Assembly: GCA_025359625.1 (NCBI GenBank)
Contig: JANYFT010000420.1
Span: forward strand, 1 to 35,969
DNA: 35,969 nt
Direction: 5' to 3'
Source: Ferruginibacter sp.
GTDB taxonomy: Bacteria > Bacteroidota > Bacteroidia > Chitinophagales > Chitinophagaceae
In this document: positions 884 to 17,806 of the stretch, in pieces
Layout: every line of letters starts with the position of its first letter
Numbering within the stretch: position 1 is the stretch's first letter
The notes under the pieces: generated by a model
What the model was told of the DNA's origin: nothing
Seen by the model: only the letters and a program-made list of their open reading frames with translations
Databases searched by the model: none
Translations under genes and position numbers: made by a program

Positions 884-2959
884 ATGAACAAACTTGAAAA
901 CTATATTACCGGAAACTGGATAACAGGTGATGGCGACGGGCAACAATTATACAATGCTGTAACAGGCGAACCTATTGCCACCGCCTCAACAAAAGGATTG
1001 GATTTTGCCGGCATAACCAATTATGCAAGAACAGTAGGCAACCCTGCCTTACGCAAAATGACTTTTCACGAAAGGGGAAATATGCTGAAAGCATTGGCAC
1101 TCCATTTAAGAAATCACCTTGATAAATTTTACAAAATCAGTTACCAAACCGGAGCCACCAAAGCCGATAGCTGGGTAGATATTGAAGGCGGTATAGGTAA
1201 CCTTTTTGCCAATGCTTCGCTGCGTAGAAAATTACCGGATGAAACATTTTGTATGGATGGCGAAAGCCATATCCTGGGCCAGCAAAATACTTTTATGGGT
1301 ACCCATATCATGGTACCAAAAGAAGGGGTAGCCATCCATATCAATGCATTCAATTTTCCGGTGTGGGGAATGCTTGAAAAAATTGCGGTGAACTTATTAG
1401 CAGGTATGCCTGCCATTGTAAAACCAGCTACGGTTACAAGCTACCTGACAGAAGCTTTTGTAAAGGAAATCATTGCGTCAAAAATATTACCCGAAGGGGC
1501 GTTGCAATTAATTTGCGGCAATGCCGGCGATCTATTAGATCATGTTACGAGCCAGGATGTGGTAACATTTACCGGCTCTGCAACCACGGGGCTGATGCTA
1601 AAATCTACTCCGTATATCTTAAAAGAAGCGGTTCCAATTACTATGGAAACGGATAGCCTGAATTGTATCATATTGGGCGAAGATATTACCCCCGCTAAAC
1701 CGGAGTGGAATATTTTTGTGAAGGAAGTACGTAAAGAAATGACGCTGAAAGCCGGGCAGCGATGTACAGGTATTCGCCGCATATTTGTTCCGGAAAATAA
1801 GATGGAAGACATGTGGAAAGCTATCAGTACAGCGTTATCACAAACCACCATTGGCAACCCATTAAATGAAAAAGTGCGTATGGGATCTTTGGCGGGGCAA
1901 GCACAACGCAAAGAAGTAAAAGAACAGATAAAAAAATTATTGGCATCTTCACAAATTATTTACGGCTCACTGGATAGTGTTGAAGTAGTGGATGCCGATG
2001 CTGTCAAAGGGGCTTTTCTTTCTCCTGTCTTGCTGATGAACGACAAACCGTTTGCATCGCAGGAAGTACATAGTGTAGAAGCATTTGGACCAGTGAGTAC
2101 CATTATGCCCTATAAAAATTTAGAGGAAGCCATCCTGTTAAGTAAAATGGGAAAGGGTAGCCTTTGCTCTTCTATTGTAACAGCAGATAATGCGATCGCA
2201 AAAAAATATGTTATCAGTGCGGCAACGCATCATGGTCGTATTTTGGTATTGAATAATGAATGTGCTGCAGAAAATACTGGACACGGCTCGCCGTTACCGT
2301 TATTGGTGCATGGTGGCCCGGGGCGGGCAGGTGGTGGAGAAGAAATGGGCGGCCTGCGTGGTGTAAAACATTACCTGCAACGAACTGCCATACAAGGGTC
2401 GCCCACTACGATTACAGCGATCACAAATGTTTATCAGCCACATGCAAAAGGCAACAATCCGGGACAGCACCCCTTTACTAAATATTTTGAAGAACTTCAA
2501 ATTGGTGATCAGATTATCACTCAAAAAAGAACCATCACCAGCGATGACATTAATAAATTTGCTGACCTTAGTGGCGATCATTTTTATGCCCATAATACCT
2601 TAACAGATTTTACAGGTACGATGTTTGAACAACAGGTAGCGCATGGGTATTTTATCATGAGTATTGCTGCCGGTTTATTTGTAGATGGATACAAAAAAAA
2701 CCCGGTGTTGCTAAATTATGGTATGGATGAATTACGTTTTACAAAACCTGTTTATCCCGGCAGCGAAATATATATTCGGTTTACCTGCAAAGAAAAACTG
2801 CCTAATGATATAAGAGTTGTTGAAAAGGAAGCAGATAAAAAAAGAGGTGATAATATTGAAAAAGGCATAGTAAAATGGTATGTCGAAATAATTGATCAGA
2901 CAAATGAAATAGCTGGAGTGGCAACTATATTAACCATGGTGGCTAAAAAAATGGTGTAG
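884..2959 (+). CDS. paaZ: PaaZ: aldehyde dehydrogenase / oxepin-CoA hydratase fusion
   Basis: This 691-residue protein matches the length and domain order of the phenylacetate-degradation protein PaaZ. The N-terminal aldehyde dehydrogenase domain (about 1-520) oxidises 3-oxo-5,6-dehydrosuberyl-CoA semialdehyde. The C-terminal MaoC-type hydratase domain (about 530-690) opens the oxepin-CoA ring. Visible active-site residues are Glu255 in METDSLN and Cys294 in GQRCTG for the dehydrogenase, and Asp565/His570 in SGDHFYAH for the hydratase; all are intact. The NAD(P)-binding FTGSATTG lies near 229-236. The gene starts 24 nt after the doc remnant, without a visible strong promoter. No other paa ring-epoxidase genes (paaABCDE, paaK) are in this window, so either they lie elsewhere or the enzyme is used in another CoA-aldehyde pathway. 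The crotonase gene at 3678 is the only possible pathway partner nearby. Confidence 0.93.
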   Translation: MNKLENYITGNWITGDGDGQQLYNAVTGEPIATASTKGLDFAGITNYARTVGNPALRKMTFHERGNMLKALALHLRNHLDKFYKISYQTGATKADSWVDIEGGIGNLFANASLRRKLPDETFCMDGESHILGQQNTFMGTHIMVPKEGVAIHINAFNFPVWGMLEKIAVNLLAGMPAIVKPATVTSYLTEAFVKEIIASKILPEGALQLICGNAGDLLDHVTSQDVVTFTGSATTGLMLKSTPYILKEAVPITMETDSLNCIILGEDITPAKPEWNIFVKEVRKEMTLKAGQRCTGIRRIFVPENKMEDMWKAISTALSQTTIGNPLNEKVRMGSLAGQAQRKEVKEQIKKLLASSQIIYGSLDSVEVVDADAVKGAFLSPVLLMNDKPFASQEVHSVEAFGPVSTIMPYKNLEEAILLSKMGKGSLCSSIVTADNAIAKKYVISAATHHGRILVLNNECAAENTGHGSPLPLLVHGGPGRAGGGEEMGGLRGVKHYLQRTAIQGSPTTITAITNVYQPHAKGNNPGQHPFTKYFEELQIGDQIITQKRTITSDDINKFADLSGDHFYAHNTLTDFTGTMFEQQVAHGYFIMSIAAGLFVDGYKKNPVLLNYGMDELRFTKPVYPGSEIYIRFTCKEKLPNDIRVVEKEADKKRGDNIEKGIVKWYVEIIDQTNEIAGVATILTMVAKKMV

Positions 2960-3088
2960 GGTTTTAAAACCGCATTGTAACCGGTTTATTTTTTTAGTAC
3001 AGATTAACCAATCTTTTGGCGTATGTTTTTTGCCTGCACAGCCTGTAAAAAACCACCAGTAAAAGCCCTGATTTTTGTATATTTGAGT

Positions 3089-3369
3089 ATGGAAAATTCT
3101 CCTGAATTTAAGGCTTTAATCAGAAAAAATGCCCACTTATTCTGGTATTCAAAAGACAGTGAAAAAGAGAAGCTGCCATTGCCTGTAGTGGTGGAATTTT
3201 TTTAAATTATGCAGATGAAGATAGTTTGTAAGAGCTCTTTAAAATTGTAGGAATAAAAAAAGTTAGTGCTGTTTTTCTAAAACAATTAAATACTTCAGAA
3301 AGGGTTGCTAATAATTACAGGAGCCTGGCAAAAAATTTTTTTAAATTATTTTTTGCTAAATATGCATGA
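3089..3369 (+). pseudogene. Remnant of the small partner gene of an AbiEii-type pair
   Basis: Translation from ATG 3089 gives MENSPEFKALIRKNAHLFWY and continues to EFF, where the frame stops at 3203-3205. Adding one T to the T-run at about 3196-3203 restores NYADEDSL. A second lesion follows: an in-frame TAA at about 3229-3231, where a Lys codon would fit (L-x-ELF). The rest then reads ELFKIVGIKKVSAVFLKQL up to FFAKYA and a stop at 3367-3369. The whole resembles small Bacteroidota proteins that I recall being encoded just before AbiEii-type nucleotidyltransferases; that recognition is from memory and not from a search. Two independent lesions make a sequencing error an unlikely full explanation, so I call it a decayed gene. 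Confidence 0.62.
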
Positions 3370-3504
3370 TTATTTTTTAAAAGGCAGTTAAGTTTTTTTG
3401 ATGATATAAATTATACTGAACAAGTTGAATACATGCCTGGCTTTGAAGTACTCGACCATGAAATAAAAGCGTTTTTAAATGATGCTGCATTAAGAGGGTT
3501 TTAA
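3370..3504 (+). pseudogene. C-terminal fragment of an AbiEii-like nucleotidyltransferase
   Basis: Directly after the preceding remnant, and in the same frame, about 44 codons read LFFKRQLSFFDDINYTEQ and on to FLNDAALRGF with a stop at 3502-3504. The block FFDDIxYTExVE followed by a short helix is typical, as I recall it, of the C-terminal end of Bacteroidota AbiEii/AbiGii-type nucleotidyltransferases. The intact-looking relative at 10350-10991 has TYFDDIDE at the equivalent place. The N-terminal catalytic part (GG[ST], DxD) is missing, so most of the gene was deleted. There is no start codon before the internal ATG at 3433. Likely not functional. Confidence 0.5.
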
Positions 3505-3677
3505 TTTGATTTCATATTTCTTGGGCTACTCTTCGGTATCGAAAAAAAATGCATCTATTTGGTTAGCTAAACTTCTTTCTAAATTTTTTAGAAAAATAAA
3601 TTTCCTAAAAACTTTGGGTGTAAAGATATCCTGGGCGAATAGGCTTATTCATATAAATTTAAAAGAATAAAATAATT

Positions 3678-4439
3678 ATGACAGAAGCATACGTAAAAAC
3701 AGAAACCCATAAAGGAGTCACCACCATTGAGTTCTTTCATCCTAAAAGCAATTCTTTACCCGCTAAAATCCTGGAAGAACTGGCAAATGAAATTCACTTT
3801 GCAGGAACTCACGATGAAACAAAAGTGATTGTGTTAAGAAGTGCCGGAGAAACATCCTTTTGTGCTGGTGCAAGTTTTGATGAATTGCTGGTGATAAAAA
3901 GTGAAGCCGAAGGATTGAAGTTTTTTAGCGGTTTTGCAAATGTTATCAATGCCCTGCGCAAGTGCCCCAAATTTGTAATTGGAAGGATACAAGGTAAATG
4001 TGCCGGCGGCGGTGTGGGTTTGGCTGCGGCAACAGATTACGTTATTGCCTTGCATACTGCTGAAATAAAATTAAGTGAACTTGCCATGGGCATAGGCCCT
4101 TTTGTTGTAGGCCCTGCTGTAGAAAGAAAGATTGGCACTGCGGCTTTTAGTGCATTGGCAATAGATGCGGTTACCTGGCGCAACAGTGACTGGGCAAAAA
4201 GAAAAGGCATGTTTGCAGAGGTGCATGAGACGGTTGAAAACATGGATGAATCTATTGTTCGTTTGGCCAATCATTTGGCTCATAGCAATCCGGCAGCCAT
4301 GAGTGAGATGAAAAAAATGTTGTGGAAGGGAACAGAACACTGGGATGAACTATTAAAAGAAAGAGCAGCCATTAGCGGAACGTTGGTATTGAGTGAGTTT
4401 ACTAAAAAGGCGATTGAAAAATTTAAGACAAAAATATAA
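3678..4439 (+). CDS. Crotonase-superfamily enoyl-CoA hydratase/isomerase
   Basis: The 253-residue protein has the crotonase fold length and its two oxyanion-hole segments: SFCAGASFDEL (about 60-70) and GKCAGGGVG (106-114). It retains the second catalytic Glu (Glu134 in KLSELAMGIGP). The usual first Glu of hydratases, normally in GGGxE, is replaced by Gly at 114. One-Glu active sites are more typical of delta-isomerases than of classic hydratases, so a PaaG-like isomerase or another CoA-ester role is possible and I do not assign a symbol. It lies downstream of paaZ in the same direction but is separated by about 700 nt holding a broken gene pair. A former paa-type cluster interrupted by an insertion is one reading. 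Start ATG 3678 is the only sensible one. Confidence 0.85.
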   Translation: MTEAYVKTETHKGVTTIEFFHPKSNSLPAKILEELANEIHFAGTHDETKVIVLRSAGETSFCAGASFDELLVIKSEAEGLKFFSGFANVINALRKCPKFVIGRIQGKCAGGGVGLAAATDYVIALHTAEIKLSELAMGIGPFVVGPAVERKIGTAAFSALAIDAVTWRNSDWAKRKGMFAEVHETVENMDESIVRLANHLAHSNPAAMSEMKKMLWKGTEHWDELLKERAAISGTLVLSEFTKKAIEKFKTKI

Positions 4440-10349: not shown

Positions 10350-10991
10350 CTACAGCAAATTAAAATGTGTATGCGGCTTTTGTGCAGCATGTAATATCCG
10401 CTTTTTGATGACAGCCATAGGCAACGGTTGCAACAGTTTTGGGGGGTCTGTATTTTCATCAATATCATCAAAATAAGTAACGGCTTTTAAAGCAATTAAA
10501 GGGTTTGAGTAGTTGTATTTTTTTACAAAAAAAGCTATTAGTTGGTCCATCGTAAAGTACTGCAATAAAAAATAAATATCTATAAAATCCTTCAACCTTT
10601 TACCGCTTTGTATAAGGGCATGAAGTTTCATTGCAGCAATATCTTCTTTGCTTAAATAAGTAATACCTTCCTCGGTAATGGGCGGCAATATAAATGGATA
10701 ATCATGTCTTATAAAATCGGTTTTTACATTATCAACAACACCCAATACAATATTGTTTCTTGATACGGTAACTTTAAAATCATGCTTACCTTTTAACGTA
10801 TCTTCTATGTCAATTGCAGTAAAATTATTTTGGCTAAATAAATCAATATCTATGCAGTTCCTGTCGCCTAATTGTAAAGCCAATGAGGTACCACCCACTA
10901 AATAAAAACCAGCTAGTCCCGGCAAACTTTGCTATTGTTGAATTACCTGAAAAGTTTGTGGCGAAATGATTAATGGGCTTTTATGCAGCAT
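10350..10991 (-). pseudogene. AbiEii/AbiGii-type nucleotidyltransferase gene with an early nonsense codon
   Basis: From ATG 10991, which overlaps the end of the upstream gene by 11 nt, the frame reads MLHKSPLIISPQTFQVIQQ, then TAG at 10934-10932, then QSLPGLAGFYLVGGTSLAL and on to the stop at 10350. Residue 20 would be Leu (TTG) in an intact gene, so this looks like a single TTG-to-TAG change. Downstream, the nucleotidyltransferase core is intact: GGTSLAL and the acidic IDIDLF, then KEDIAAMKLHAL and DFIDIYFLL, about 213 residues in all. In AbiE systems the AbiEii protein is a toxin nucleotidyltransferase (established). Re-initiation at TTG 10925 could still give a protein lacking 22 N-terminal residues. 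Inactivation or attenuation is likely but not certain. Confidence 0.8.
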
Positions 10992-11541: not shown

Positions 11542-12909
11542 ATGGCCAATACAATTATTACAGCAAAAACAGATTCTCCGGGCCAACTTAAAAGAACACT
11601 TGGCCCTTTAATGCTTTGGGGGCTTGGCGTTGGTTATGTAATATCAGGAATGTATTTTGGCTGGAACCTTGGCCTTCCGGTTGGTGGCACACTGGGGCTT
11701 GCTATCGCCACTTTTTTTATCATCATCCTCTACATCACGTTTACTTTTTCTTACACAGAGTTAGCTTGTGCTATTCCAAAAGCGGGTGGCGTTTTTGACT
11801 ATGCCACCAGGGCCATGGGAAAAGATATCGGCTTCATTGCAGGCATGTCACAGATAATAGAATTTGTGTTTGCACCACCCGCCATTGCAGCTGCTATTGG
11901 CGCTTACTTTCATATTTTTTTACCCCAGTTTTCGGTTACCTCAATTGCCATTGTAGCGTATATAATTTTTACCGGGTTAAATATGTATGGCGTAAAAGCA
12001 GCGGCCACCTTCGAACTGATCATTACAGCTTTCGCAGTATTTGAATTGGTTTTATTCAGTGGCGTTACGTTGCCACATTTTCATTGGTCAAACCTTACAC
12101 AAAATGCTTTTCCTTTTGGATGGAAAGGGGTATGGGCTGCTATACCTTTTGCGGTGTGGTTTTTTCTTGGTTTAGAAGGTGTTGCCAATGTTGCCGAAGA
12201 AACCATCAATCCTCAAAAAAATGTGCTCAAAGGTTTTGGCTCTGCGTTGATTACATTGATCATTTTATGTGCCCTGGTATTCATCTCTTCTGTTGGCGTG
12301 GGAGGCTGGGAAAAAGTAGTATTTCCAACACCGGGAGCAGAAGCATCAGATTCTCCGCTGCCAATGGCGCTATCACAAATAACAGGCAACAGCGGCTGGT
12401 TGTATCATCTGTTAATAACCATTGGCTTAATGGGATTGGTTGCATCTTTCCATGGATTGATATTGGCTGCAAGCCGTGCCACTTATGAGTTTGGTAAGAC
12501 AGGTTGTATCCCGGTCATTTTCGGTAAAATACATCCAACATTTAAAACACCCGTCAATGCATTGTTGTTGAATATGGCCAGTGGCATCATTGCCTTGTTC
12601 ACAGGTAAAACAGGCGATATTATTACCATTGCCGTATTTGGCGCCATCATGTTGTACATCTTTGCAATGATCGCTGTATTGAAATTAAGAAAAACCGAAC
12701 CGGACCTGGTAAGGCCATTTAGGGTGCCCATGTTTCCCTACTTTCCAATCACAGCGTTGGTGATTGCGGTAATTTCTATGATCGCAATGATCACATTGAA
12801 CCTGAAATTAGCCCTGATCTTTTTTGCTATACTTGTACTTGCCTATATTTGGTTTCATTTTATTGTAAAACAAAAAACAGATGTCCAATCAACCACTCTC
12901 AACGGATAA
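11542..12909 (+). CDS. APC-superfamily permease, ethanolamine-permease type
   Basis: A 455-residue, 12-helix amino acid-polyamine-organocation transporter. It opens with LKRTLGPLMLWGLGVGYVIS, and the helix-1 segment GYVISGMYFGWNLGLPVGGT is characteristic, as I recall it, of ethanolamine permeases. Later features are ELACAIPKAGGVFDYA (helix 2/3) and PFAVWFFLGLEGVANVAEE. It would import ethanolamine or a similar small amine across the inner membrane. The 3' end overlaps the next gene, a glutamine-synthetase-like ligase, by 29 nt. This makes the pair an operon and points to an amine that is gamma-glutamylated after entry. A near-match -7 element (TATCTTTA, 11516-11523) precedes it by 18 nt. Substrate is inferred from type and context. 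Confidence 0.88.
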   Translation: MANTIITAKTDSPGQLKRTLGPLMLWGLGVGYVISGMYFGWNLGLPVGGTLGLAIATFFIIILYITFTFSYTELACAIPKAGGVFDYATRAMGKDIGFIAGMSQIIEFVFAPPAIAAAIGAYFHIFLPQFSVTSIAIVAYIIFTGLNMYGVKAAATFELIITAFAVFELVLFSGVTLPHFHWSNLTQNAFPFGWKGVWAAIPFAVWFFLGLEGVANVAEETINPQKNVLKGFGSALITLIILCALVFISSVGVGGWEKVVFPTPGAEASDSPLPMALSQITGNSGWLYHLLITIGLMGLVASFHGLILAASRATYEFGKTGCIPVIFGKIHPTFKTPVNALLLNMASGIIALFTGKTGDIITIAVFGAIMLYIFAMIAVLKLRKTEPDLVRPFRVPMFPYFPITALVIAVISMIAMITLNLKLALIFFAILVLAYIWFHFIVKQKTDVQSTTLNG

Positions 12910-14254
12910 AGTGCTGCAGCAACTGGCAGAACAAAATACGGAAAAAGTAAAATTGGCAGTTACTGATATTGATGGGATCCTGCGTGGTAAAATGATCAGC
13001 TATGAAAAATTTGTTTCTATTGTTGAAAAAGGTTTTGGTTTTTGCAATGTGGTATTTGGTTGGGATGCCGGTGATGTGGCCTACGATAATAGTGAGTACA
13101 CGGGTTGGCATTCTGGTTATCCGGATGCAACCGCAGTAATTGATTTAAATAGTTTTCGCCAGATTCCCTGGGATAATGATACGCCTTTTTTCCTGGCAGA
13201 TTTTCGTGATAGTAAGGGAAATGACCTGGCTGTTTGTCCACGCAGTTTATTAAAAAAAATTATTAAGCAGGCAGGCGACAAAGGATACACGCCTTATTTT
13301 TCACAGGAGTTCGAATGGTTTAATTTGATAGACAATACAGAACAATTGTATGCAGGGAAATTCAGGGATACAAAACCTATCACGGAAGGCATGTTTGGTT
13401 ATTCCCTGCAACGGGCCGCACAAAAGAATGATTATTTTAATGACCTCTTTACTTTGCTGAAAAAATTTGGCGTACCGATTGAAGGCCTGCACACGGAAAC
13501 AGGCCCCGGTGTGTATGAAGCTGCCATAACTTATTCAGAAGTACTAGAAGCCGCAGATAGGGCCGTACTTTTTAAAAGTGGCACCAAACAAATTGCACAC
13601 AACCATGGTGTGATTGCTACTTTTATGGCCAAGTTCAATGAAAGTTTACCGGGATGCAGCGGCCATGTTCACCAGAGCTTGTGGAGTTCAGCAAAAAAAC
13701 AAAACCTTTTTTACGATAAAAATAAAGCAACAGGGATCAGTTCGTTAATGGAAAGTTATATGGCCGGCCAACTGGCTTGCCTGCCTTTTATACTGCCTAT
13801 GTTTGCACCAACGGTTAACAGTTACAAGCGTTTGGTAGAAGGCGCCTGGGCACCAACTACATTAACCTGGGCTATTGATAACCGAACCACAGCTTTGCGT
13901 GCTTTGCCTTCCAGCAGCAGTTCAACAAGATTGGAAACACGGGTAGTTGGCAGCGACAGCAATCCTTACCTGGCAATGGCAGCCTGCCTTGCTGCAGGTT
14001 TGTATGGCATTAATAATAAACTGAAATTGAAAACACCAGCAACGGTAGGCAATGGCTATGCAGATAAAAAGAATGGAACCTTGCCAAAAAATTTGTGGGA
14101 AGCCACACAGGCAATGAAAACTTCACCCATTGCAAAAGAACTATTTGGAGAAGCCTTTGTTGAACATTTTACATCAACAAGAGAATGGGAGTGGCGGCAG
14201 TTTTCAAAAGTGGTAACAGACTGGGAGCTGAAAAGATACCTTGAAATTATTTAA
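12881..14254 (+). CDS. Glutamine-synthetase-family gamma-glutamyl-amine ligase
   Basis: The 457-residue protein has the GS catalytic set: SQEFEWF with Glu143/Glu145, ETGPGVYE with Glu206/Glu213, CSGHVHQS with His262, then NSYKRLVEGAWAPTTLTW, IDNRTTALR and RLETRVVGSDSNPYLA. These bind the metal ions, ATP and glutamate. The N-terminal beta-grasp-like region (about 20-110) contains TDIDGILRGK, as in PuuA/FluG/GlnA4-type members rather than housekeeping GS. Such enzymes join glutamate to amines (putrescine, isopropylamine, ethanolamine). Its overlap of 29 nt with the amine permease gene and the downstream hydrolase and dehydrogenases support an amine-catabolic role. The expected product is gamma-glutamylethanolamide if ethanolamine is the substrate (inference). 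The overlapping ATG is the only good start, since the next Met is at residue 38. Confidence 0.88.
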   Translation: MSNQPLSTDKVLQQLAEQNTEKVKLAVTDIDGILRGKMISYEKFVSIVEKGFGFCNVVFGWDAGDVAYDNSEYTGWHSGYPDATAVIDLNSFRQIPWDNDTPFFLADFRDSKGNDLAVCPRSLLKKIIKQAGDKGYTPYFSQEFEWFNLIDNTEQLYAGKFRDTKPITEGMFGYSLQRAAQKNDYFNDLFTLLKKFGVPIEGLHTETGPGVYEAAITYSEVLEAADRAVLFKSGTKQIAHNHGVIATFMAKFNESLPGCSGHVHQSLWSSAKKQNLFYDKNKATGISSLMESYMAGQLACLPFILPMFAPTVNSYKRLVEGAWAPTTLTWAIDNRTTALRALPSSSSSTRLETRVVGSDSNPYLAMAACLAAGLYGINNKLKLKTPATVGNGYADKKNGTLPKNLWEATQAMKTSPIAKELFGEAFVEHFTSTREWEWRQFSKVVTDWELKRYLEII

Positions 14255-14495
14255 AGAATAAGTTGCCGTGCAGGCGTTGAGACGTTTTTTGAGCCGGGCA
14301 AATACAGCAGCAATGTGCATCTTCATTGGCGTCGCACTCTTTTACTTTTTCAGCTATTTGGTACGCTTCCAAAATTGAAAGTTCTTAGGACAGGCGCAAT
14401 AAGAACAGTGAATAAAACAATAATAAAAAATCCGTGGTGATCCGGCCAGATCCGTTTCATCTGTATTTCTATCAAAAGAAAAATAATAAAAAACC

Positions 14496-15647
14496 ATGAC
14501 AGATTTTAATACCGTAAGACAATTTAATTTTCCAACTATTATTCGCTTTGGAGCAGGTGCCATAAAAGAACTACCCAATCATTTACTGGCCAACGGCTTA
14601 AGCAGGCCATTGATCGTTACCGACCCAATGGTTAGCGGACTGAATTTTTTTAAAGCAATAAAAGAAAGTCTTACAGCAAAATCAATTTCAGTTGAAGTAT
14701 TTTCAGACATTCACAAAAATCCGGTGAAGAGTGATGTGTTGAAAGGAGGAGATGCCTTTAAAGCAACCAACAGGGATTGTATCATTGGTATCGGCGGTGG
14801 AGCAGCAATGGATGTGGCCCGTGCAATTGTGTTGCGCATTAACCATCACCGCGATCTGTTTGATTATGATGACCTGGTTGGTGGTGATCAATATGTGACA
14901 GAAGACGTTCCTTATTTCATAACAGTACCAACTACCAGCGGCACAGGAAGCGAAGTGGGAAGAAGTGCTATTATTTCTGAAGATGATACACACCGTAAAA
15001 GAATTTTATTTGCGCCTAAGTTGATGGCGAAAATTGTTTTTGCAGATCCATTGCTTACAATGGAACTGCCGTCATTCATCACCGCAGCAACAGGTATGGA
15101 TGCATTAACGCACAACATGGAAGCCTATATCGCAAAGAACTTTCACCCAATGGCTGCAGGCATTGCTTTGGAAGGAATTTCTCTGATCAATCAATCAATT
15201 GTTAATGCTGTTAATAAACCAGATCTGGCATCAAGAAGTAAAATGATGATTGCTTCATTAATGGGTGCTGTTGCTTTTCAAAAAGGACTTGGCGTAGTGC
15301 ATTCACTTGCTCATCCTTTATCTTCTTTGTTAGATACACACCATGGTTTGGCCAATGCGGTGAACCTGCCGTATGGCATGCGTTTTAATTTACCTGGATT
15401 GGAGGCCGAATTTAAAAGAATGGCACTTACAATGGAGTTGAGTGAAACAAGCGGCGAAGCTGTAGTAAACCATTTGTTTGAATTAAATAAACAACTTGGT
15501 TTGCCAACAAGGCTCCGGGATATTGGTGTTAAAGAAGAACACATTGAAACCCTGAGTGACCTGGCATTGGCAGATTTTTGTCATCCAAACAATCCCAGGC
15601 CGGTAACTAGAAATGATTTTAAACAATTGTATACAGAAGCGTTGTAA
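14496..15647 (+). CDS. Iron-containing alcohol dehydrogenase
   Basis: A 383-residue group III alcohol dehydrogenase. It has the NAD-binding GIGGGAAMDVARA (about 98-110), TTSGTGSEV, and the metal-binding set from GMDALTHNMEA and VVHSLAHPLSSLLDTHHGLANAV, with the Asp and His ligands intact. It interconverts alcohol and aldehyde with NAD(H). Its stop overlaps the next start by one base (TAATG at 15645-15649), so it is co-translated with the gamma-glutamyl hydrolase. In the proposed route it would oxidise the hydroxyl of the gamma-glutamylated amino alcohol. That step is not needed for putrescine, so its presence argues for an amino alcohol substrate. A 241-nt gap separates it from the ligase gene. 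Confidence 0.92.
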   Translation: MTDFNTVRQFNFPTIIRFGAGAIKELPNHLLANGLSRPLIVTDPMVSGLNFFKAIKESLTAKSISVEVFSDIHKNPVKSDVLKGGDAFKATNRDCIIGIGGGAAMDVARAIVLRINHHRDLFDYDDLVGGDQYVTEDVPYFITVPTTSGTGSEVGRSAIISEDDTHRKRILFAPKLMAKIVFADPLLTMELPSFITAATGMDALTHNMEAYIAKNFHPMAAGIALEGISLINQSIVNAVNKPDLASRSKMMIASLMGAVAFQKGLGVVHSLAHPLSSLLDTHHGLANAVNLPYGMRFNLPGLEAEFKRMALTMELSETSGEAVVNHLFELNKQLGLPTRLRDIGVKEEHIETLSDLALADFCHPNNPRPVTRNDFKQLYTEAL

Positions 15648-16375
15648 TGAATGAATCTATAATAAAAATTGGTGTAACCTATACCGGAACAGACGAAAAA
15701 CACAGCAACTATGTGCGTTGGCTAAAGGGCAATGAACACATAGAAATTACCACTTTGTCACCCCTTCACACAGACCTTGAAAGCATAAAAGGTTTTGATG
15801 GTATCCTGTTGTCTGGCGGTGTTGATATGCACCCGAAATTTTATAACAGCACTGTTACTGATTATCCAAATGCGCCACAACATTTTCATGAAAAAAGAGA
15901 TGAATTTGAAATAGCGGTTTTTCAAAAAGCGCAGCAAAATAATATTCCAGTACTGGCAGTATGCCGGGGAATGCAAATGGTAAACTGCATACTGGGAGGA
16001 AATTTAACACAAGACATTGGTCCGGAAGCAAACGGCATTCATAAGTTTGAACACCATGATAAAGGGCACGGAATAAATATTGTACCGGCAACGTTGCTGA
16101 ATGAAATAACAGGCGTTGACAGAACCATGACCAACAGTGCCCATCACCAATGTGTCAATGACCTGGGCGAAGGCTTGTTGGTCAATTGCAGGTCAGACGA
16201 TGGAATTGTGGAAGGGATAGAATGGGAACACAAAGAAAATAAGCCCTTCTTTTTGGGCATACAATGGCACCCGGAAAGGATGTACAAATTTCATTTGAAT
16301 GAATTGCCATCAACAAAAAATATCAGGGACCGGTTTATAAAGGAGATAAAAAAAGTAATCGAAAAAACAGCTTAG
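15647..16375 (+). CDS. Gamma-glutamyl hydrolase, class I amidotransferase-like (PuuD type)
   Basis: The 242-residue protein belongs to the peptidase C26/PuuD group. It has the nucleophile Cys106 in VLAVCRGMQMVN, the partners His208 and Glu210 in GIQWHPERM, and the early GILLSGGVDMHP segment. PuuD cleaves gamma-glutamyl-GABA to glutamate and GABA. Here, from the neighbours, the substrate may instead be gamma-glutamylglycine or another gamma-glutamyl acid (inference). It is translationally coupled to the alcohol dehydrogenase gene by a one-base overlap and followed after 63 nt by an aldehyde dehydrogenase gene, with a stem-loop in that gap. Confidence 0.9.
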   Translation: MNESIIKIGVTYTGTDEKHSNYVRWLKGNEHIEITTLSPLHTDLESIKGFDGILLSGGVDMHPKFYNSTVTDYPNAPQHFHEKRDEFEIAVFQKAQQNNIPVLAVCRGMQMVNCILGGNLTQDIGPEANGIHKFEHHDKGHGINIVPATLLNEITGVDRTMTNSAHHQCVNDLGEGLLVNCRSDDGIVEGIEWEHKENKPFFLGIQWHPERMYKFHLNELPSTKNIRDRFIKEIKKVIEKTA

Positions 16376-16383
16376 GGTAGGAT

Positions 16384-16413
16384 GGTGGGTCACCCCAAAA
16401 AGGGTGGCTCACC
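16384..16413. other. Intercistronic stem-loop between hydrolase and aldehyde dehydrogenase genes
   Basis: GGTGGGTCACCC (16384-16395) can pair along all 12 positions with GGGTGGCTCACC (16402-16413), with two G-U pairs in RNA and a 6-nt loop. There is no T-run after it, so it is not a classic terminator. It could set mRNA processing or stability, or be a REP-like repeat. It falls within a possible 19-codon upstream extension of the next gene, which is the reason I reject that extension. Confidence 0.6.
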
Positions 16414-16438
16414 ACACAAATGCATAAAAAATTATAAA

Positions 16439-17806
16439 ATGAAAATTATTAACCCGGCAACAGAAGCAATAATTACTGAAGTTGCAGAAGATACTGTAGA
16501 AACAATAAAAGGAAAATTTGAACTGCTTAAAAAAGGGCAGCAGGCTTGGGGGAAAATTAGCGTAACCGACAGAGTGAAAGTGATCCAAAAGTTTTATGAA
16601 CTGCTGGAAACAAACAAAGACGAACTGGCCCATACTCTTACGAGTGAAATGGGAAAACCATTGCAGCAATCTTACAATGAAGTGAATGGCGCCCGTGGCC
16701 GTATCAAATTCTTTATCGACAATTCAGAAAAATATTTGGCAGAAGAGTGGATCACTGCAGAAGGTGCCACCAAAGAAAAAATTGTGTACGAACCATTGGG
16801 GGTGATTGCAAATATTTCTGCCTGGAACTATCCCTTTTTGGTAGGTGTAAATGTTTTTATTCCTGCATTAATTGGTGGCAATGCTGTTTTTTATAAACCT
16901 TCAGAATATGCTACACTAACCGGGTTACATATTGAAGCGCTGTTGTACAAGGCCGGTGTTCCTGAAAATTGTTTTCAAACAGCCATTGGCAGAGGGCAGG
17001 TAGGAGAAGAGTTATTGCTGTTACCGCTAAACGGATATTTCTTTACAGGGAGTTACCGTACGGGAAAATACATTGCTGAAAAAGTGGCTGGCAAAATGGT
17101 GCCCTGTCAATTGGAGCTGGGCGGCAAAGACCCGTTGTATGTAATGGATGATGTGGAAAATATTGAGAATACAGCAGGTGATGCACTGGAAGGGGTGGTA
17201 TATAACAGCGGCCAGAGTTGTTGTGCAGTTGAAAGAATTTATGTGCAGGAAAAAGTGTACGCTGCTTTTGTAAATTCTTACGTGGAGCAATGTAAAAAAC
17301 TGACAATTGGAGATCCGCTTGATAAGACCACAGATATTGGTCCGCTGAGCAGGAAAGAGCAACAGGCATTTTTATCCAGCCAGGTTGACGATGCAGTAAT
17401 TCTTGGAGCTACTGTTTTGAGTGGCGGAAAAATTCCATCAGGCAAAGGCTATTATTTTGAACCAACTGTTTTGGTGAATGTAAACCATGCTATGAAAGTA
17501 ATGACGGAAGAATCTTTTGGCCCGGTGATTGGCATCCAGAAAGTAAAGGACGATGCCGAAGCAATACAATTAATGCAGGACACTATTTATGGCCTTACAG
17601 CATCTGTATATTCAAAAAGCTTTGACAGGGCAGAAGAAGTAATGAAACAGATGCATACTGGCACTGTGTACTGGAATTGCTGCGACAGGGTGAGTGCCAG
17701 CTTACCGTGGTCCGGCAGAAAGCAATCTGGCTTGGGAGCTACGTTATCTTACCAGGGCATCAGGGCATTTGTTCAACCAAAGGCTTATCATATTAGGAGT
17801 AAATAA
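16439..17806 (+). CDS. NAD(P)-dependent aldehyde dehydrogenase
   Basis: Taken from ATG 16439 the protein has 455 residues, beginning MKIINPATEA like many succinate-semialdehyde-type enzymes. Active-site features are Asn130 in SAWNYP, Glu226 in LELGGKDP and the nucleophile Cys261 in SGQSCCAVER. The frame can be extended to 16382, but those 19 codons come from a stem-loop (16384-16413) and have no family resemblance. It is the last gene of the amine cluster. Its expected job is oxidation of the aldehyde made by the alcohol dehydrogenase to the acid that the hydrolase then splits, although a role in clearing free glycolaldehyde or another aldehyde is also possible. Confidence 0.92.
   Translation: MKIINPATEAIITEVAEDTVETIKGKFELLKKGQQAWGKISVTDRVKVIQKFYELLETNKDELAHTLTSEMGKPLQQSYNEVNGARGRIKFFIDNSEKYLAEEWITAEGATKEKIVYEPLGVIANISAWNYPFLVGVNVFIPALIGGNAVFYKPSEYATLTGLHIEALLYKAGVPENCFQTAIGRGQVGEELLLLPLNGYFFTGSYRTGKYIAEKVAGKMVPCQLELGGKDPLYVMDDVENIENTAGDALEGVVYNSGQSCCAVERIYVQEKVYAAFVNSYVEQCKKLTIGDPLDKTTDIGPLSRKEQQAFLSSQVDDAVILGATVLSGGKIPSGKGYYFEPTVLVNVNHAMKVMTEESFGPVIGIQKVKDDAEAIQLMQDTIYGLTASVYSKSFDRAEEVMKQMHTGTVYWNCCDRVSASLPWSGRKQSGLGATLSYQGIRAFVQPKAYHIRSK

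Follow-up and report, generated by a model that had tools for sequence, protein, structure and literature searches.

We examined a window of 35,969 nucleotides (nt) from Ferruginibacter sp. (contig JANYFT010000420.1, forward strand), in which five genes on one strand (+), between positions 11542 and 17806, look like a cluster for the use of ethanolamine. Open reading frame (ORF) calls and scans with Pfam and NCBIfam profiles at their curated cut-offs gave, in order, an APC-family permease of the ethanolamine (Eat) type (11542 to 12909), a ligase resembling glutamine synthetase (GS), which we regard as a putative gamma-glutamylethanolamide synthetase (12881 to 14254), an iron-containing alcohol dehydrogenase (Fe-ADH; 14496 to 15647), a hydrolase of the peptidase C26/PuuD type (15647 to 16375), and an aldehyde dehydrogenase (ALDH; 16439 to 17806). 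The permease and ligase genes overlap by 29 nt and the Fe-ADH and hydrolase genes by 1 nt, exactly as described in the original prediction, and our motif checks likewise found the active sites intact, as it had stated for the catalytic residues. The ALDH ORF opens at 16382, but its start is probably at 16439 (MKIINPATE...), because the frame in relatives L059, L061, and L067 does not open until 1 to 2 residues upstream of this point and because the DNA of the L109 locus upstream of it differs from that of the window. With this start, a gap of ~60 nt lies behind the hydrolase gene and, given the 241-nt gap between the ligase and Fe-ADH genes, the locus consists of two tight blocks plus the ALDH gene. 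In a comparison with L109, the nearest named locus from a metagenome-assembled genome (MAG), the ratio of nonsynonymous to synonymous substitution rates (dN/dS) of the five genes was 0.04 to 0.11 and there were no stop codons; all five are under purifying selection.

The permease scored 436.4 bits against TIGR00908, for which the curated cut-off is 381.75, and the permeases of 9/9 sampled relative clusters also exceeded it. Most of the plasmid proteins closest to it carry the annotation eat, and among three whose surroundings we inspected, two lie behind eutBC and the third lies beside an amine oxidase gene.

The ligase belongs to PF00120 but missed the GS cut-offs (TIGR00653, 234.0 versus 429.15 bits; TIGR03105, 235.4 versus 469.6). 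Most of the glutamate residues of GlnA and those for metal and ATP are kept, an exception being N264, which is replaced by P, and GlnA D50 pairs with D69 of the ligase in a gappy region of the alignment. Two GlnA positions have changed, flap residue E327 being W323 and Y179 being F172. For GlnA4 of Streptomyces, sections of the published study read lost ammonium-site residues as space for a larger amine (PMC6529630). An AlphaFold model (predicted local distance difference test [pLDDT], 79; predicted template modeling score, 0.86) confirmed the GS fold, and comparison with the PDB returned 5dm3 (Csal_0679); we make no argument from the pocket of this model because several active-site loops have pLDDT values of <50. 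The ligase is also the only PF00120 match in its own genome (G000), in whose assembly, which is 93.6% complete, GS type III (GSIII; PF12437) gave no match, while the other 19 of the 20 genomes in the genus sample have either a GSIII-sized PF00120 frame (~730 amino acids [aa]) or a shorter piece. These facts would suit a protein that serves as the cell's glutamine synthetase, or as some other ammonia-assimilating enzyme, next to unrelated genes. We nevertheless consider this very unlikely and rejected it, given the replacement of E327 and Y179, the missed cut-offs, and the conservation of the neighboring genes described below; moreover, congener G309 has both an orthologue of the ligase and a GSIII-sized gene. 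When GSIII was sought in the incomplete home assembly by way of its flanking DNA, one flank was found on another contig and GSIII did not adjoin it. Its absence is probably an assembly gap.

The other three enzymes were assigned by family and motif. The Fe-ADH matches PF00465 and PF25137 and carries DALTH202, HSLAH269, and HHG282, the hydrolase matches PF07722 (154.7 bits) and carries VCRGMQ105 and QWHPE206, and the ALDH matches PF00171 (420.8 bits) and carries WNYP129, ELGGK226, and GQSCC258 (numbered from the 16439 start); we take all of these to be active-site motifs. The Fe-ADH is 38% identical to the alcohol dehydrogenases of Paracoccus and Legionella lytica, which are themselves clustered with genes for a GS-like ligase and an ALDH, and its best plasmid matches (~39%) are mixed, one lying in an ethanolamine-type operon, one near a GS-like gene, and one in neither setting. 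A GS-like ligase, a PuuD-type hydrolase, an ALDH, and an APC permease are also the parts of the Puu operon of Escherichia coli, so the cluster might in principle handle diamines in the manner of a polyamine pathway. We think this highly improbable. The five genes include no PuuB-type oxidase, its place being taken by the Fe-ADH; the ligase is 30% identical to PuuA and scored 218.7 bits against the PuuA profile NF045547, for which the cut-off is 650; and the hydrolase fell below the PuuD-type cut-off (65 versus 266). The Puu route was therefore rejected on account of the missing oxidase and the missed cut-offs. The original prediction had taken the presence of an alcohol dehydrogenase as pointing to an amino alcohol, and this is borne out in that an Fe-ADH is also found in operons that match published ethanolamine operons, as far as these are described in sections of a review (PMC9397018).

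We then asked how widely the arrangement is conserved. Among 294 genomes of the host family (Chitinophagaceae), 94 had a match to the ligase, and 73 of these were counted as carrying real relatives; the remainder were 20 weak matches (about 20 to 26 bits, mostly GSIII-sized frames) and one match with 34% identity. In 33 of 60 family stretches (59 from 58 ligase genomes and one from congener G309), all five functions were present on one strand in the order permease-ligase-ADH-hydrolase-ALDH. Five others end at contig ends, eight are missing a member, two have the ligase alone, and 12 belong to a sister lineage of GS-like ligases, which we call lineage K. Its family members are 56 to 63% identical to the window ligase, and their partners are a protein of ~360 aa and a HAD-IIA phosphatase (TIGR01460). 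A second set of 80 named loci, selected by similarity from at least 582 relatives, contained 48 that were complete on one strand, 13 that end at contig ends, 10 with missing members, and nine with the ligase alone. Complete carriers include species of Pedobacter, Parapedobacter, Olivibacter, Solitalea, Chitinophaga, Flavihumibacter, Terrimonas, Lacihabitans, Emticicia, and Cyclobacterium. The ligase of Limnovirga soli KCS-6 is 80% identical to that of the window. The flanks are variable: apart from the two lineage K partners, which occurred in 12 and 11 loci, each additional gene family was limited to at most 7 of the 60 stretches. The five-gene order thus exceeds chance and recurs in other Bacteroidota families, in agreement with the order proposed at the outset.

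In some relatives the last two genes are joined. Among 99 loci with both a ligase and an ALDH (42 from the family and 57 named, with some organisms in both sets), hydrolase and ALDH were encoded by one ORF of ~700 aa in 17 (10/42 family loci and 7/57 named loci) and separately in 78. A genome search recovered the fused frames (676 to 708 aa) in the same ten family genomes, and Pfam found both domains in 5/5 fused proteins scanned; two further fused cases (G129 and G269) lie outside the 17. Terrimonas pollutisoli H1YJ31 is among the organisms with a fused protein. The fused hydrolases all fall within one clade of 33 (support, 100), alongside separate ones. Since the fused state requires four changes on the hydrolase tree and eight on the ligase tree, the fusion must have arisen, been lost, or been exchanged more than once. 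The existence of such a fusion argues that the hydrolase and the ALDH act in one pathway, and it would fit a sequence in which a gamma-glutamyl aldehyde is oxidized and the product is then hydrolyzed.

Ethanolamine is deaminated by EutBC in a B12-dependent reaction that requires adenosylcobalamin. The original prediction held that the host does without EutBC and without a microcompartment, and indeed the EutB, EutC, and microcompartment shell families had no match in its genome as assembled. EutB is present in 46 of the 294 family genomes. Counting as a cluster any ligase with an adjoining permease or ADH gene, we assigned the contexts of the 73 ligase genomes to the cluster, at least in part (52 genomes), to lineage K (20), or to neither group (one, G090); in G149, the ADH-hydrolase-ALDH part is on another contig, and G058 was placed in lineage K by the tree, not by its neighbors. 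Cluster and EutB occurred together in 0/294 genomes, although 8.1 such genomes would be expected (two-sided p = 8e-5). Among G001 to G100, in which by the listed rows each genus is represented once, 18 had the cluster, 19 had EutB, and none had both (p = 0.02), and five genera (g1, g7, g53, g65, and g93, by their listed labels) hold both states, in different genomes. The first EutB test comprised three uncorrected comparisons: p was 0.27 for the full set of 73 ligase genomes, 0.0005 for 45 cluster genomes, and 0.008, in the opposite direction, for 13 lineage K genomes. The split between cluster and lineage K by neighbors was known before this test was made. The last 14 ligase contexts (six cluster, seven lineage K, and one neither) were added with their EutB status already known, after which the final tally was taken. 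For lineage K, the final figures were 8/20 genomes with EutB against 38/274 (p = 0.006), or 3/10 with one genome per genus (p = 0.4).

We inspected 20 EutB loci (18 from the 46 family genomes and two from the class, out of 57 EutB genomes across two samples), and in 18 of them an Eat-type permease gene immediately precedes eutB. The same kind of permease therefore heads either EutBC or the cluster, with one or the other per genome in this sample, as would be expected if the two were alternative routes for one substrate. In a phylum sample of 395 genomes, the ligase was matched in 61 at E 1e-60, and EutB was present in 12; of these 12, six carry lineage K and none was found to carry the cluster. 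This sample adds little to the exclusion because only eight of its genomes carry the cluster and 16 lower-scoring matches fell outside the inspection.

Because the permease passes the TIGR00908 cut-off and the cluster excludes EutB, we favor ethanolamine as the substrate and consider it likely that the five genes are a catabolic set for ethanolamine, possibly also for close amino alcohols, that works by gamma-glutamylation, as originally suggested. In the pathway predicted from these sequences, the permease would import ethanolamine, and the ligase, with ATP, would link it through its amino group to glutamate at the gamma-carboxyl group. The alcohol group of the resulting gamma-glutamylethanolamide would then be oxidized to an aldehyde by the Fe-ADH and on to gamma-glutamylglycine by the ALDH, after which the C26 hydrolase would release glycine and recycle glutamate. 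Such a route would replace the B12-dependent EutBC ammonia-lyase, and it would need no microcompartment.

Comparable systems have been described. In the sections consulted here, the MED193 study reports that a hydrolase, a TRAP importer, a ligase, an ALDH, and an ADH of Phaeobacter rise on phosphorylethanolamine and describes the operon as related to those of Chromohalobacter salexigens and Agrobacterium tumefaciens (PMC10132767), while a review table lists PF00120, PF00465, and PF00171 for C. salexigens together with a formylglutamate amidohydrolase (PMC9397018). On these descriptions, the operon of C. salexigens, Agrobacterium C58, and Phaeobacter MED193 shares the three families, a hydrolase, and an importer with the window. 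The window cluster differs from it in that the ligase comes from another GS branch, the last enzyme is a C26 hydrolase (PF07722) instead of the formylglutamate amidohydrolase type, the Eat-type APC permease replaces the TRAP importer EtoVWX, there is no RpiR regulator, and the gene order is not the same. We found sets of ligase, ADH, ALDH, and amidohydrolase genes, including an Fe-ADH, on plasmids of Paracoccus sp. TOH and Paracoccus denitrificans, and a matching set in Sinorhizobium meliloti with an APC permease in place of TRAP, of a subfamily unlike that of the window permease; a stretch from Paracoccus alcaliphilus has genes for TRAP, a ligase, an ALDH, and an Fe-ADH. By likeness, we take the Paracoccus and Sinorhizobium sets to be ethanolamine operons. 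Their ligases (two from Paracoccus and one from Sinorhizobium; 36.7% identity to the window ligase) form a separate branch with support of 100 in our GS tree, a quick tree with two long outgroup branches, whereas the window clade, including lineage K, joins ligases from Legionella lytica, Photobacterium, Burkholderia, and Rhizobium and then the IpuC-type ligases. The window cluster thus shares the logic of the pathway but, with a ligase and a last enzyme that are not of the proteobacterial type, lies outside that operon family.

The Legionella lytica (L226) and Photobacterium (L227) plasmids carry a GS-like ligase gene (43.8% and 43.2% identity, respectively) beside genes for an ALDH, an Fe-ADH, and an amidotransferase, which in Legionella is from another subfamily than the window hydrolase; no Eat-like permease was present in the stretches seen of these two clusters. 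For Streptomyces coelicolor, sections of the GlnA4 study describe the glutamylation of ethanolamine in vitro and a cluster that resembles the window in having an ethanolamine ligase, a dehydrogenase, an ALDH, an amidotransferase-type hydrolase, and, in related species, a permease, and that differs from it, according to a figure legend, in having a regulator and, as orf2, a short-chain dehydrogenase (PMC6529630). SCO1611 stands beside PF00465 in the review table (PMC9397018); the likeness was drawn from these descriptions. As a separate observation, in a Bacteroidota locus, L276 (G483), an ALDH and an Fe-ADH come after a ligase that is more distant (278 bits); this is perhaps an operon of the other ethanolamine type.

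The Ipu clusters of Paenarthrobacter and Microbacterium have a ligase and a hydrolase similar to those of the window, together with a P450, a ferredoxin, and a short-chain dehydrogenase, none of which is among the five window genes. IpuC is the nearest plasmid ligase with an amine annotation (39% identity), and the window hydrolase was nearest, among the references compared, to an isopropylamine-cluster hydrolase (35%). A P450 gene, with genes for redox partners, stood beside the ligase gene in 3/3 inspected isopropylamine-type plasmid clusters, and an Ipu route proper was rejected for the window because a P450 is missing from the five genes. The P450 of the isopropylamine pathway would turn the amine into an amino alcohol, so a cluster without it could use the same chemistry with another amino alcohol as the main substrate (1-amino-2-propanol, alaninol, or 3-aminopropanol) or with a mixture. 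The window ligase and hydrolase might also suggest this, since among the references compared they resemble the isopropylamine enzymes more closely than they do the ethanolamine-type ligase of proteobacteria and PuuD, respectively. We regard this as unlikely, though less so than the ammonia and diamine alternatives: for the permeases of two isopropylamine-type clusters, TIGR00909 (76 bits) was the only match within E 1e-20, without a match to TIGR00908, whose cut-off the window permease passes, and the exclusion of EutB fits ethanolamine.

A number of observations weigh against the assignment of the cluster to ethanolamine. The window ligase does not group with the ethanolamine-type ligases of proteobacteria. 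Of the references, IpuC is nearer to it and shares W as the flap residue, the three proteobacterial ligases having F. Lineage K is nearly identical to the window ligase at the checked residue sites and has different neighbors, so the checked residues are no proof of the amine; they discriminate neither between ethanolamine and similar amines nor between the cluster and lineage K. When all ligase genomes are pooled, there is no exclusion with EutB (8/73, p = 0.27), the eight genomes with both being all of lineage K, and kinship in the exclusion test was corrected only through genus sampling. Four of the 99 loci show no hydrolase; a search of these genomes found none anywhere in G158 and G250 and only a weak piece in a third. 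The permease is missing, or the ligase stands alone, in some loci, and the 60 family stretches have no conserved regulator gene next to the cluster.

The gamma-glutamylation chemistry itself is not new, having been proposed for Chromohalobacter, Agrobacterium, Phaeobacter, and Streptomyces. What is new is the phylum, the ligase from another GS branch, the C26 last enzyme, the hydrolase-ALDH fusion, and the exclusion with EutB; our searches, which covered open-access literature, returned no report of the route in Bacteroidota. With somewhat less confidence than in the substrate, we think that Bacteroidota probably have a separately assembled B12-free route with a nonhomologous last enzyme, in some members as a fused bifunctional protein that would take the aldehyde to glycine and glutamate, and that it has been swapped with EutBC behind the same kind of permease, even within a genus. 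Phosphatidylethanolamine is described, in sections of the MED193 study, as a major bacterial membrane lipid (PMC10132767), and given its abundance ethanolamine should be a common nitrogen source. If our interpretation is right, a B12-free alternative to EutBC would help to predict which Bacteroidota recycle lipid nitrogen and which depend on B12, and "glutamine synthetase" annotations would be corrected. The natural hydrolase-ALDH fusion would be of use to enzymology, and carriers of the cluster include cultured strains.

Lineage K represents a candidate three-gene system that is widespread in Bacteroidota. Its arrangement was present in 32/32 stretches around non-cluster ligases of >500 bits in the phylum sample outside the family (L244 to L275), and its other loci include L070, L081, and L084 to L093. 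The ~360-aa protein had no sequence match in Pfam, NCBIfam, or the PDB (one member searched); by eye, it resembles APH/choline-kinase folds.

Some smaller observations concern individual loci. The cluster occurs on both L109 and L110, contigs from a single Ferruginibacter MAG (LF-bin-269), with ligases 95% and 94% identical to that of the window; these are either two copies or mixed strains. By the nearest named relatives of this one gene, the window genome appears to belong to the Chitinophagaceae, close to Ferruginibacter. A cluster-like ligase without same-strand cluster genes or lineage K neighbors was seen in the named loci L160, L181 (Emticicia), L122, L123, L148, L167, L186, and L188. 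In the window itself, the interval between the hydrolase and ALDH genes (16376 to 16438) contains an inverted repeat, GGTGGGTCACCC...GGGTGGCTCACC, which is absent from that place in the close relative L109 and to which one sequence elsewhere in the genome is similar. Upstream of the five genes, an AbiEii-type nucleotidyltransferase (PF08843) is encoded at 10350 to 10925 (-), and positions 884 to 4439 encode an ALDH-MaoC fusion followed by an enoyl-CoA hydratase, a pair that we presume to be phenylacetate-degradation-like.

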